Shown here: positions 5,958 to 56,126 of the stretch, piece by piece | Layout: each line of letters opens with the position of its first letter | How positions within the stretch are numbered: position 1 is the first letter of the stretch | From: Synechococcus sp. CS-1332 | GTDB taxonomy: Bacteria; Cyanobacteriota; Cyanobacteriia; PCC-6307; Cyanobiaceae | Direction of reading: 5' to 3' | Assembly: GCF_025127995.1 (NCBI RefSeq) | Contig: NZ_JAHLYP010000050.1 | Span: forward strand, 62,001-126,000 | Length of the DNA stretch: 64,000 nucleotides | Made by a program: the position numbers and the translations under genes | Notes under the pieces: generated by a model | Database searches by the model: none | What the model was told of the DNA's origin: nothing | The model's input: the letters and a program-made list of their open reading frames with translations, nothing else

Positions 5958-6947
5958 ATGGACCCGAGCACCCCGACCGCCAGCCCCGGCGATGCCCAGC
6001 CCAACGACGACAGCAGCGAAGGGGCTCCCTTCCGCTCCGGCTTCGTGGCCCTGATCGGACGGCCCAATGTGGGCAAGTCCACCCTGCTCAATCAGCTGGT
6101 GGGCCAGAAGGTGGCGATCACCTCCCCCGTGGCCCAGACCACCCGCAATCGGCTGCGCGCCATCCTCACCACCCCGGCGGCCCAGCTGATCCTGCTGGAC
6201 ACCCCTGGCATCCACAAACCACATCACCTGCTGGGGGAGCGTCTGGTGCAGAGCGCCCGAGGAGCGATCGGCGAGGTGGATGTGGTGTTGCTGCTGGTGG
6301 ATGCCAGCCAGCCCGCGGGGCGCGGCGACGGCTTCATCATCGACCTGCTGCGCCACTGCCGGGTTCCGGTGCACGTGGCCCTCAACAAGAGCGACCGGGT
6401 GGGGGCCGATGCGGAGGATCTGGCCGCCACCTATCGGGAGATGCTCGCCGCGGCAGACGATCGCCCCGTCGCCTGGCCCCTGCACCCCTGCAGCGCCCTC
6501 AACGGTGACGGCTGCCAGGCCCTGGTGCAGGCCCTGGCGGCCGACCTGCCGCCGGGACCGCTGCTCTACCCGGCCGACACGGTCAGTGACCAGCCGGAGC
6601 AGTTGCTGCTGGCGGAGCTGATTCGTGAACAGGTGCTGACCCTCACCCGGGAGGAGGTGCCCCACTCGGTAGCGGTGCGGATCGAGCGGATCGTGGAGGA
6701 CGAGGGCAAGGTCAAAGGCAAGGAACGCACCGCCGTGCTCGCCACGGTGCTGGTGGAGCGCAGCAGCCAGAAGGGGATCCTGATCGGCAAGGGCGGTCAG
6801 ATGCTCAAGGCCATCGGCCAGGGGGCCCGGCTGCAGATGCAGAAGGTCTTTGACGGCCCGGTGTACCTGGAACTGTTCGTCAAGGTGGTGCCGAACTGGC
6901 GCAGCCATCCGGGCCGGCTGGCGGAGCTGGGCTACCGGGGCGACTGA
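5958..6947 (+). CDS. era: GTPase Era, 16S rRNA maturation / 30S assembly
   Basis: Ras-like GTPase that binds the 3' end of 16S rRNA and checks 30S subunit assembly. G1 is GRPNVGKST (about residues 34-42), G3 is DTPGIH, G4 is NKSD, and the C-terminal KH domain has the GKGGQMLKAIG signature near residue 275. At 329 residues it is slightly longer than the roughly 300 usual, because of a 28-residue acidic/Pro-rich N-terminal extension before the G domain. It is the first gene of a co-directional run with the bilin lyase, trmD and ispF. Confidence 0.97.
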   Translation: MDPSTPTASPGDAQPNDDSSEGAPFRSGFVALIGRPNVGKSTLLNQLVGQKVAITSPVAQTTRNRLRAILTTPAAQLILLDTPGIHKPHHLLGERLVQSARGAIGEVDVVLLLVDASQPAGRGDGFIIDLLRHCRVPVHVALNKSDRVGADAEDLAATYREMLAAADDRPVAWPLHPCSALNGDGCQALVQALAADLPPGPLLYPADTVSDQPEQLLLAELIREQVLTLTREEVPHSVAVRIERIVEDEGKVKGKERTAVLATVLVERSSQKGILIGKGGQMLKAIGQGARLQMQKVFDGPVYLELFVKVVPNWRSHPGRLAELGYRGD

Positions 6948-7033
6948 GCGCGCCGGCGAACCGCGCGCTCCAGCTGGGGGTTTGCGAAGATCCCAACCGG
7001 GTCCACCGGCCCCGATCTCCCGACGCCCCCGCC

Positions 7034-7567
7034 GTGACCAGCGCGACCGAGCCTCCCACCGCAGCGATGATCGCTCCTTTCCCCCCTGAGACGATTGCGG
7101 GCTTTCTGGCCTTCTGCGCCGGGGACTGGCTCTCCCTGCGCAGTCGCTTCAGCCTGGAGGAGGCCAGCGCCGAAGCCCGGCAGGCCGAGCAGGAGGAGGT
7201 CAGCTGGCACAGTTCCGAGCGCGGTGAACTGCAGGTGACCTACCTGGCGCCGGAAGGGGATGGCGAACCGGGGGGGCTGGAGATCACCCCGCCCAGCGGC
7301 GGCAGTCACCGGCTGCTGTTCCTCCCCGACGGAGGCTTCCAGGGCCATGCCCCTGATGGAGCCGTCAGCACGGGCCGCTGGCAGCTCTGGCCGGATGGCA
7401 GCCTGGAGCTGACCAGCGAGCGGGCCGGTACCTCAGTGCAGGAACGGATCTGGTTCACCAAGGCGAATCTGCGCCTGCGCAGCAGCGTGGAGCACCACCC
7501 CGACGGCCGCCCGGGCCGGGCCAGCTTCAGCTCCGAGATCCGGCGGGTCAGCCGACCCGCCAGCTGA
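7034..7567 (+). CDS. CpcS/CpeS-family phycobiliprotein chromophore lyase
   Basis: The best family match by eye is the CpcS/CpeS S-type bilin lyases, which attach phycocyanobilin or phycoerythrobilin to conserved cysteines of phycobiliproteins as lipocalin-like chaperones. Evidence: the N-terminal FCAGDWLSLRSRF corresponds to the family's SAGKW..QRT region, and the C-terminal half carries the typical ERIWFTKANLRLRSSV and ASFSSEIRRV stretches. Length (177) is normal. Differences: the acidic AEARQAEQEEVSW region is more divergent than in canonical CpcS, so a CpcU-like partner or another subgroup is possible; I give no symbol. It is 86 bases after era and 7 before trmD. Confidence 0.82.
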   Translation: MTSATEPPTAAMIAPFPPETIAGFLAFCAGDWLSLRSRFSLEEASAEARQAEQEEVSWHSSERGELQVTYLAPEGDGEPGGLEITPPSGGSHRLLFLPDGGFQGHAPDGAVSTGRWQLWPDGSLELTSERAGTSVQERIWFTKANLRLRSSVEHHPDGRPGRASFSSEIRRVSRPAS

Positions 7568-52325: not shown

Positions 52326-52925
52326 ATGGCTCACCAGCTGCCCGAACTGCCCTACGGCCTCGACGCACTCGAGCCGCATATCTCCCGGCAGACCCTCGAG
52401 TTCCACCACGGCAAGCACCACGCCGCCTACGTCACCAACCTCAACAAGCTGATCGAAGGGGGCGACCTCGAAAGCAAGAGCCTCGAAGAGGTGATCCTGG
52501 CCGTCGCCGGTGACGCCACCAAGGCCGGGGTGTTCAACAACGCCGCCCAGGTCTGGAACCACAGCTTCTACTGGCAGTGCATCAAGCCCGGTGGCGGCGG
52601 CGCCCCCACCGGTGCTCTGGCCGACAAGATCGCCGCCGACTTCGGCAGCTTCGAGGCCTTCAGCGAGCAGTTCAAGACCGCCGGCGCCACCCAGTTCGGC
52701 AGCGGCTGGGCCTGGCTGGTGCTCGATGGCGGCACCCTGAAGATCACCAAGACGGCCAACGCCGATCTGCCCCTCGCCCATGGCCAGAAGGCCCTGCTCA
52801 CCATGGATGTGTGGGAGCACGCCTACTACCTCGACTACCAGAACCGCCGTCCCGACTACATGACCACCTACCTCGACAAGCTGGTCAACTGGGACTTCGT
52901 GGCCGGAAACCTGGCCTCCGCCTGA
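52326..52925 (+). CDS. sodB: Superoxide dismutase (Fe type)
   Basis: 199 residues. Metal ligands are the His in LEPHISRQTLEFHHGKHH, the His in AAQVWNHSFYW, and the Asp and His in MDVWEHAYYLDY. Iron-type signatures: FHHGKHHAAYVTNLN, NNAAQVWNHSFYWQCIKP, GATQFGSGWAWLV. It detoxifies superoxide made by photosynthetic electron transport. The upstream AATCGTTACAATGGCG contains a plausible -10 (TACAAT). A strong terminator follows 47 bases after the stop. Confidence 0.98.
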   Translation: MAHQLPELPYGLDALEPHISRQTLEFHHGKHHAAYVTNLNKLIEGGDLESKSLEEVILAVAGDATKAGVFNNAAQVWNHSFYWQCIKPGGGGAPTGALADKIAADFGSFEAFSEQFKTAGATQFGSGWAWLVLDGGTLKITKTANADLPLAHGQKALLTMDVWEHAYYLDYQNRRPDYMTTYLDKLVNWDFVAGNLASA

Positions 52926-52999: not shown

Positions 53000-53241
53000 A
53001 TAGCAGCTATAACATGTTCGCCCTCTCATCAGGGAATGGCCACAACTCTCTGCGGAATGGCATCGTTGCCCACTTGTAGCAAGGGCCGCTGCTAGAGGCC
53101 CAGCTAGAATCAGAAGCGATTAATATCCCTAATGGTTTTAGCATCATCCTGCCCCACCATGAGAGCAGATCTTCCTCATTGCCTAAAGCAGAAAATGATC
53201 CTAGAATTATAGAATCTGTCATGGGCAGGATCATTGGATAA

Positions 53242-54423
53242 AAACAACCGGCCAAAGGGCCCAATTTCAACTCCGATGATCCCAGGCAAGCCATTCTAAA
53301 GGATGTCGCTATTGCCTCTCCCGATACCTCGCTTGATGCGGCCTTTACCCTGATCAGAGGCAATGCCGCTTCCTGCGACCTGAACCAGCTCCACAAGGAT
53401 AACCTTGATTCCACAATTGCCCAGGCAGCAAAACGCAAAACTGGCTGCCTGTTAATAGCCAATGCAGATCAGCGCATCATTGGGATCCTCAAAGAGCTGG
53501 ACTTACTAAAACTAATTATCAGCGATTCACCCGGCTCTTCTACAACAGTGGAAGAGGTGATGACCACCCCAGTTGTCACGATTCAGCTAGAGGAGTACAA
53601 AGATATCTTTGTAGCAAATCGAATAATGAAAGCCCGGAAAATTCGCTATCTGCCAGTCGTTGACAGTGATGGCAGACTGGAAGGACTGATTACGCAATCA
53701 AGCCTGCGACAACTGCTGAAGGAAAGCCACTTTCTGCGCTTGCGTAAAGTGTGTGAAATCATGACGAGCACCGTCGTCACGGCTTCACCTTCGGACACCC
53801 TGCAGCTTGTAGCCAGATTGATGGTCAACAAACAGGTCAGCTGCATCGTGATTTGCAGCGGTGCCAGCATCGAGCCGGAAGATCAAATTCCCGTTGGAAT
53901 ACTCACAGAAGGGGATCTCGTACAGCTAAACAGATTAGGTGTTGATTTCAATTCCGTTGAAGCAGCGCAGATCATGAGCACTCCGCTGACCTTCGCTCAA
54001 ACCAATGACTCCATAGGGGTTGTACTGAGTCTCATGGCTTCTCTCCATGTGAGGCGCTTGGTCATTAAATCCCAAAATGGAACCCTTGCCGGGATCGTAA
54101 CCGAGACCAGCCTTACCAGTGTCCTTGAACCCCAGGAGCTCTATGGAGTCATGGAGATCATGCAGTCTACCGTCAATCACTTGAGGGCGGAGCGTACAAA
54201 GCTTCTCCTCCAGATGGATCTAGATCTGGAGCAAGGCTTTCGGAACTCGGAATTCCATATGGTCTGCCAACCTCAGCTCAATCTAAGTAGTGGAAGAGTC
54301 TGCGGCGCCGAAGCCCTGATCCGGTGGCAATGCCAGGGTCGGGGGAGCATTCCCCCCCAATCACTTCATTCCCTTGGCCGAAGAGAGCGGATTGATCGTA
54401 GACCTTGGCTATTGGATCCTTGA
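53242..54423 (+). pseudogene. CBS-EAL signalling protein, 5' part (frameshifted)
   Basis: First standard start in this frame is GTG 53548, but the reading frame is protein-like from 53242, just after an in-frame TAA, with a CBS repeat already under way (AFTLIRGNAASCDLN, TGCLLIANADQRIIGILKELD). CBS domains follow: VEEVMTTPVVTIQLEEYKDIF, KVCEIMTSTVVTASPSDTL and AAQIMSTPLTFAQTNDSIGV. The EAL domain then starts (FHMVCQPQLNLSSGRVCGAEALIRW). After GRGSIPP the frame shifts at a seven-C run (54352-54358) and ends at 54423. Low GC and codon use unlike its neighbours suggest transfer. 53000-53241 has no other gene. Confidence 0.8.
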
Positions 54424-55009
54424 GCAGGCCTGCAAGCAGGGGCAAACATGGCTGAAGTCATCGGTACAACCGATCAGCATGGCTGTGAACGTGTCCAGCA
54501 TTCAGCTGGAGGATCCAAATTTCATTCAGCGAGTTTCAGAAATCACTTGCGAAACAGGCTTCCCAAGTGAATTGCTGCATCTTGAGCTCACCGAGAGTGT
54601 GCTGGCTGAGAACTTTGAGGGCCTTGCAAAAGTTCTCGACAATTTGCAGTCACAAGGAATCAAGATTGTCATCGACGACTTTGGCACTGGTTTCTCGTCT
54701 CTGGCTTATCTTCAGCATTTCAACTTTAACTCCCTGAAGATCGATCGCTCCTTCGTTACCGGCATTGAAGGCAAACCACGAAATCAAGCCATCGTGGATT
54801 CCATCATCCAGCTTTCGAGCGTTCTCTCTTTTGATGTGGTGGGTGAAGGAGTTGAAACAGAGGCGGAATTTGATCTGCTGCGGAACAAGGGCTGCCACGT
54901 CATCCAGGGCTACCTGTTCAGTCGACCATTGGGCGTGGTTGGGTGGGCCGACTTCACCGCTGACCTGGAGGATTTCGCTCTGAATCCTTTGAGTCTTCGG
55001 ACGGAGTAA
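54359..55009 (+). pseudogene. CBS-EAL signalling protein, 3' part (rest of EAL phosphodiesterase domain)
   Basis: The continuing EAL domain in the next frame: NHFIPLAEESGLIVDLGYWI, MAVNVSSIQLEDPNFIQR, LLHLELTESVLAEN, KIVIDDFGTGFSSLAYLQHF, LKIDRSFVTGIEG and FDVVGEGVETEAEFDLL. The residues that bind magnesium and cyclic di-GMP (EAL, N, E of ELTES, DD, K, E of GEGVE) are all present if both parts are joined. With one C fewer in the run, the two frames read IPPNHFIPLAEESG, exactly as expected. A stand-alone product could start only at TTG 54374. The 3' end overlaps convergent queA by 56 bases. Confidence 0.82.
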
Positions 55010-56126
55010 CCCCGGGGGGCAGCACCGCTGCCGGAGGAATCCACATCGCATCGCCATAGGAAAAGAACCGATAGCCACCGGCGATCGCTTCGCCGTAGAG
55101 CTCCAGCAGCCGCCGGCGACCGATCAGGGCGCTCACCAGCAGCAACAGGGAGCTCCTGGGCAGGTGGAAGTTCGTGAGCAGCCCCTGCACCACTTGGAAG
55201 CGGAAGCCCGGCTGGATCACCAGGTTCACTGGGCCCGCATAGGGCGCCAGCACGCCCCCCCCCATGGCCGCGACCCCTTCGAGAGAGCGGACACTGGTGG
55301 TGCCGATGGCGATCACCCGGCCGCCCTCCCGCTGGCAACGGGCCACCGCCTCCACCAGCTCAGGGCTCACCTCTACCCACTCGCTGTGGAGTTCCAACTC
55401 ACTGAGATCCTCCGTTTCAATCGGCCGGAAGGTGCCCAGACCCACATGCAGAGTGGTGCGGGCGATCGTCACCCCCCTGGCCCTGATCTCAGACAGCAAC
55501 TCGTCACTGAGGTGGAGCCCGGCCGTTGGGGCGGCCACGGCACCTGGCCGCTCGGCGTAACGGGTCTGGTAGCGCTCGTCGTCGCTCGGGTCGTGGCTGT
55601 GGATGTAGGGCGGCAGTGGGATGGTGCCGTAGCGCTGCAGCAACCCCTCGATCGCCTCGGCCGTGGCGCGATCGGAGGGGAAGCGGAGGATGCGGCCACC
55701 ACTGGCGGGATCCTCCCCCACCACCTCGACCGGGAGTGGAGCCTCACCTGGGGCCTCCAGTTGCAACAGTTCTCCAGGGCGCAGGCGCCGGGCCGGCCGG
55801 GCCAGGGCCAGCCAGAGACCATCGCCGAGAGGGTTGATCAGCAGCAACTCCACGGCGCCGCCGCTGGCGCGGCGCGCCGCCAGCCGCGCCTTGAGCACCC
55901 GGGTGTCGTTGACCACCAGCAGATCACCGGGCCTCAATTCGTGCTGGAGATCCCAGACCTTCACATGACGAGCGCCCGGAGCAGGTGTATCCGGTGGCTC
56001 GACCGCCAGCAGCCGGGCGGCATGCCGCGGTTCTATCGGCCTCTGGGCAATCCTCTCCTGGGGCAGCTCGAAGTCATAGCTGGAGAGGCGCAGATCCGGA
56101 TCGTCGGCGCCAGCTGCCAGGGCCAT
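54954..56126 (-). CDS. queA: S-adenosylmethionine:tRNA ribosyltransferase-isomerase QueA
   Basis: Makes epoxyqueuosine in tRNA by transferring the ribosyl group of SAM to preQ1. 390 residues. Motifs: [20 protein letters not shown] near the start, [61 protein letters not shown] and [21 protein letters not shown]. The last 25 residues are a non-conserved tail that overlaps the EAL remnant. Starts 4 bases after the PDH E2 gene ends. Confidence 0.97.

Follow-up and report, generated by a model that had tools for sequence, protein, structure and literature searches.

A Split CBS-EAL Gene between sodB and queA in Synechococcus sp. CS-1332 Is Probably a Decaying Gene

Results

Frame Change at a Seven-C Run within the EAL Domain

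The window, that is, the whole stretch of 64,000 nucleotides analyzed here, carries a CBS-EAL gene between two conserved flanking genes. The genome encodes PsaA/PsaB, which marks the host as a cyanobacterium. Upstream lies a gene that we take to be sodB (52326–52925, forward strand), which also adjoins the CBS-EAL gene in genomes G025 and G559. Downstream and convergent is queA (54954–56126, reverse strand), assigned by synteny and its Pfam match (Queuosine_synth, E = 1.3e-116). The upstream frame of the CBS-EAL gene is open from 53242 to 54423. By inspection of frames and starts, a single open frame at 53242–54351 (forward strand) encodes the CBS domains as well as the beginning of the EAL domain; Pfam CBS matches three stretches within its first 369 codons (E = 6.7e-36). 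At 54352–54358, inside the EAL domain, lies a run of exactly seven Cs on the forward strand, where the reading frame changes. The downstream frame restarts at 54359 as NHFIPLAEESGLIV and ends, stop codon included, at 55009 on the forward strand; it holds the remainder of the EAL domain (Pfam EAL, E = 1e-54, profile positions 49–236 of 236). A whole-genome search for EAL domains likewise detected the gene as two pieces, covering profile positions 3–60 and 41–236. The preliminary description had reported an EAL domain that changes frame at the seven-C run, and the two frames that it proposed are confirmed by the CBS match upstream and the EAL match downstream.

The main EAL motifs are spread across both pieces, with the exception of AEGVE, which reads GEGVE. 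The catalytic motifs of an EAL c-di-GMP phosphodiesterase, expected within one protein, are here divided between two frames.

Absence of a Normal Start Codon

In addition to the frame break noted earlier, the start of the gene appears to be damaged. The CBS frame contains no ATG, GTG, or TTG before the GTG at 53548, which lies 85 codons past the ATT (53293) of a conserved A-I-L, whereas the relatives start ahead of A-I-L. The sole ATG upstream in this frame is at 53221 and runs into an in-frame TAA at 53239 after six codons; this stretch (53221–53241, forward strand) encodes M-G-R-I-I-G-stop. The intact G025 protein also opens with M-G-R, at a similar distance to A-I-L, and the upstream DNA alignment of the window with G025 is poor. 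Judged from these sequences, the ATG at 53221 is probably the old start, now broken. The gene carries more than one independent disabling lesion, the break at the C run and the lack of a normal start, although use of a rare start, for example the ATT at 53293, is possible.

Relatives of the CBS-EAL Gene

The first 369 codons of the CBS frame (P0001) were used as the query for relatives. Among the 41 other congener genomes, G025 gave the sole near-full-length match, to an intact protein with 40% identity; 20 of the 42 congeners passed E = 0.001, mostly through short EAL or CBS stretches in larger proteins. At the family level, 5 of 400 drawn genomes passed E = 1e-20, the window's own and G025 counted, and at the class level 182 of 388 passed E = 1e-30, many of these matches being CBS portions of proteins of other lengths. 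Near relatives sought by pattern among genome contigs and viral contigs gave 11 and 3 matches, respectively, none of which was confirmed.

Eleven relatives, four from the family and the seven best from the class search, were examined for their reading frames. In contrast to the window gene, with its two pieces in two frames, nine of them are open throughout; G441 is frameshifted at a run of eight Cs and G105 has one in-frame TAG. None of the 11 breaks frame at the site of the window's run, where the homologous position holds five Cs in G025 and six in G472 and G441, in frame in every case. The intact cyanobacterial proteins (G025, G559, G472, G393, G406, G257, G242, G278, and G204) share the CBS-EAL order and the EAL motifs with the window gene, and G025 and G559 share its chromosomal place as well, but they differ from it in their open frames and in having fewer changes at conserved columns. 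The TAG in G105 (L077, G105:C56:34000-44000) lies between two CBS stretches and is an unrelated lesion.

The preliminary description had also considered that slippage might restore some full-length protein. Shifting by +1 at CCC codons is indeed documented, for example at CCC_UGA in E. coli pheL and in Listeria phage genes (PMC5009743), and would favor slippage at the run, whether of the ribosome or during transcription. A conserved site, however, is among the features of programmed frameshifting in PMC3711429 (Table 1), and the break is common to none of the 11 relatives; programmed frameshifting at a conserved slippage device is therefore disfavored and was set aside. The first frame, moreover, continues for about 20 codons past the run and has no stop at the run itself, and the missing start counts against slippage too. 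Taken together, slippage during expression is hardly credible as a source of full-length protein.

Wear and Residual Constraint

In a comparison of ten rows, the window protein was altered at 21 of 121 otherwise invariant columns, whereas each of the nine others was altered at 0 to 9 of 100–109. When every close clade was represented by a single row (eight rows), the values were 22 of 124 for the window and 3 to 11 for the others. The end branch of the window copy (1.75) is the longest, compared with 0.89 for G025 and 0.83 for G559, although the stem of G472 and G441 is likewise long (1.09) and the branching position of the window copy is unsettled. The changed columns and the end branch point to relaxed constraint, even though the asymmetry among codon positions is still kept and resembles that between intact copies. 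No further stop interrupts either piece, which, together with the asymmetry, suggests that the final break is recent or that the damage is less than it appears. The GC content at third codon positions (GC3) is 0.565 and 0.597 in the two pieces and 0.79–0.91 in five neighboring genes. Since the copies in G025 and G559 have values of 0.65 and 0.775, low GC3 is in part characteristic of the family; a foreign origin could also account for part of the low GC3 and of the divergence.

The sodB-queA Place in Other Genomes

The order FKBP-like–sodB–CBS-EAL–queA–odhB is common to the window, G025, and G559. Intact CBS-EAL copies at the sodB-queA place are found in one congener (G025) and in one other genus (G559). 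In G559 (L072), the CBS-EAL gene is immediately followed, at 6790–7095, by a second SodB-like match of 102 residues with 50% identity. All 42 congeners gave a SodB match at E = 1e-40, which in a few was incomplete or fell on a paralogue with about 50% identity, and sodB loci were retrieved for 30 of them. Across these 30 loci the CBS-EAL gene is present in the window and G025. It was not found in 27, and G012 gave the sole match within the gaps searched. In 15 loci no more than about 125 bases separate queA from the SodB match, and in one no more than about 215, with the gene absent; nine have other sequence in the gap, about 0.5 to 1.2 kb long, and two have no queA match in the locus. Weak matches in L099 (1e-4) and L110 (5e-4) were discounted, as they fell on a stretch of the G559 frame ahead of the CBS-EAL part in a search with composition correction off.

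G012, the nearest congener by SodB (98%), keeps at this place an EAL relic of 58 codons that contains an in-frame stop and an altered DDFGTG motif. The relic is 72% identical to G559, 62% to G025, and 47% to the window; that it is closer to the two intact copies than to the window copy indicates that the latter has changed greatly or has another origin. Behind the relic (L083, G012:C10, between sodB and queA) is an open reading frame that by eye we would label a Phd/YefM-type antitoxin. Other open reading frames occupy the gap behind sodB in L097 and L098, presumably phytanoyl-CoA dioxygenase-like, and in L100–L102, L104, L107, and L108, presumably phosphopantetheinyl transferase-like, both again judged by eye. 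The sodB-queA place seems prone to gene turnover.

Other Homopolymer Runs in the Window

A run of seven Cs is not rare here, as the window contains 19 G/C runs of at least seven nucleotides. Eighteen open reading frames of the window that cover such runs were scanned with Pfam. Seven of the other 18 runs fall inside matched Pfam spans and all seven, with lengths of 7–9, are read through in frame; three lie in a matched open reading frame outside the span and eight in no scanned open reading frame with a match. The longest G/C run, nine Cs at 55255–55263, is among those read through and lies inside the intact queA. An assembly that is generally broken in frame is ruled out by these seven testable runs.

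An error confined to the seven-C run, so that the true genome reads through there, would fit a genome (2.97 Mb) in 57 contigs and two pieces that are open at every other position, and homopolymers are the usual sites of sequencing error. It is nonetheless unlikely, given that the comparable runs, up to nine Cs, are in frame. An error at the run would also leave the missing start, the altered conserved residues, and the losses in sister species unexplained.

The Run as a Possible Switch and the G441 Copy

The run could instead be a phase-variable site, with slipped-strand changes in its length turning the gene on or off, and the G441 copy bears on this possibility. This copy (L074, G441:C1:1816000-1828000, reverse strand) comes from a one-contig genome, is broken at eight Cs elsewhere in the gene, and shares 91% DNA identity with the intact copy of G472; the genus is represented here by these two genomes only. 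Between the two copies, dN/dS is 0.15 over the 101 codons ahead of the shift and 0.14 over the 500 codons behind it, so that a copy broken at a homopolymer is otherwise conserved (dN/dS of about 0.14), as phase variation would have it. The seven Cs near the frame break in the window also reach the length at which a homopolymer is counted as a repeat (at least 7 nt) in PMC3711429, as do 18 other runs in the window.

The frame break at a homopolymer is thus shared with phase-variable genes, but the window gene differs from them in its short run, unshared site, and second lesion. The window and G441 are broken at runs in separate parts of the gene, and G025, G472, and G441 are all in frame at the window site. 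Seven is short for a switch, and runs of this length are common in intact genes here. A change in run length alone would leave no normal start, unless a rare start were used, and hence would not yield a complete gene. The window copy is also worn, unlike a maintained switch. Phase variation at the window's run is therefore highly improbable. The eight Cs of G441 are, on the sequences compared, a better candidate, although this break may equally be a recent loss or an error.

Discussion

The locus is best explained as a pseudogene, a gene in decay, whose CBS-EAL product, with its CBS domains, is a putative c-di-GMP phosphodiesterase. This reading, to which we assign a probability of roughly 0.8, is based on the two separate lesions, the 21 altered columns of 121, the longest end branch, and the low GC3, as well as on the relic at the same place in G012 and the losses in congeners, the gene being intact at this place in G025 and G559. 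The genome contains seven further EAL genes uninterrupted by stops, which were counted in favor of dispensability and decay. Against decay stand the retention of the main EAL motifs and the otherwise stop-free pieces.

Selection on a dispensable c-di-GMP phosphodiesterase gene was most likely relaxed, and loss of the start and a slippage indel at the mutable C run would then have followed in either order, with the outcome that the active enzyme would no longer be made. Neither piece should be an active enzyme, as the first covers only positions 3–60 of the EAL profile and the second lacks the EAL signature. Of the four options in the preliminary description, a newly inactivated gene is the best supported, with the amendment that the run is one lesion within a wider decay that extends to the start, the residues, and the losses in sister species. 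The window gene resembles pseudogenes with homopolymer frame breaks, a class described in PMC3711429, in its break, its unshared site, its occurrence in few genera, its further lesion, and the relics and losses in its kin; it differs in being still nearly complete, with two visible lesions only. No title among the matches listed for cyanobacterial phase variation, CBS-EAL and c-di-GMP, homopolymer pseudogenes, or c-di-GMP in Cyanobium names the CBS-EAL gene or its place.

A more far-reaching idea is that poly-C tracts in the CBS-EAL genes of this cyanobacterial family are slippage switches for c-di-GMP turnover, the seven Cs of the window and the eight Cs of G441 representing two off states, the latter in a gene that, compared with the intact G472 copy, is otherwise under purifying selection. 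We regard it as a long shot. If true, free-living cyanobacteria would possess a second-messenger enzyme subject to phase variation, and the G441 copy would matter more if its run of eight Cs were found in mixed lengths. As it stands, the window gene looks like a case of ordinary loss of function rather than a switch. Read as decay, the locus would form part of a series in which a single c-di-GMP enzyme gene is lost step by step from a fixed chromosomal place, with intact, broken, relic, and empty states among related cyanobacteria.
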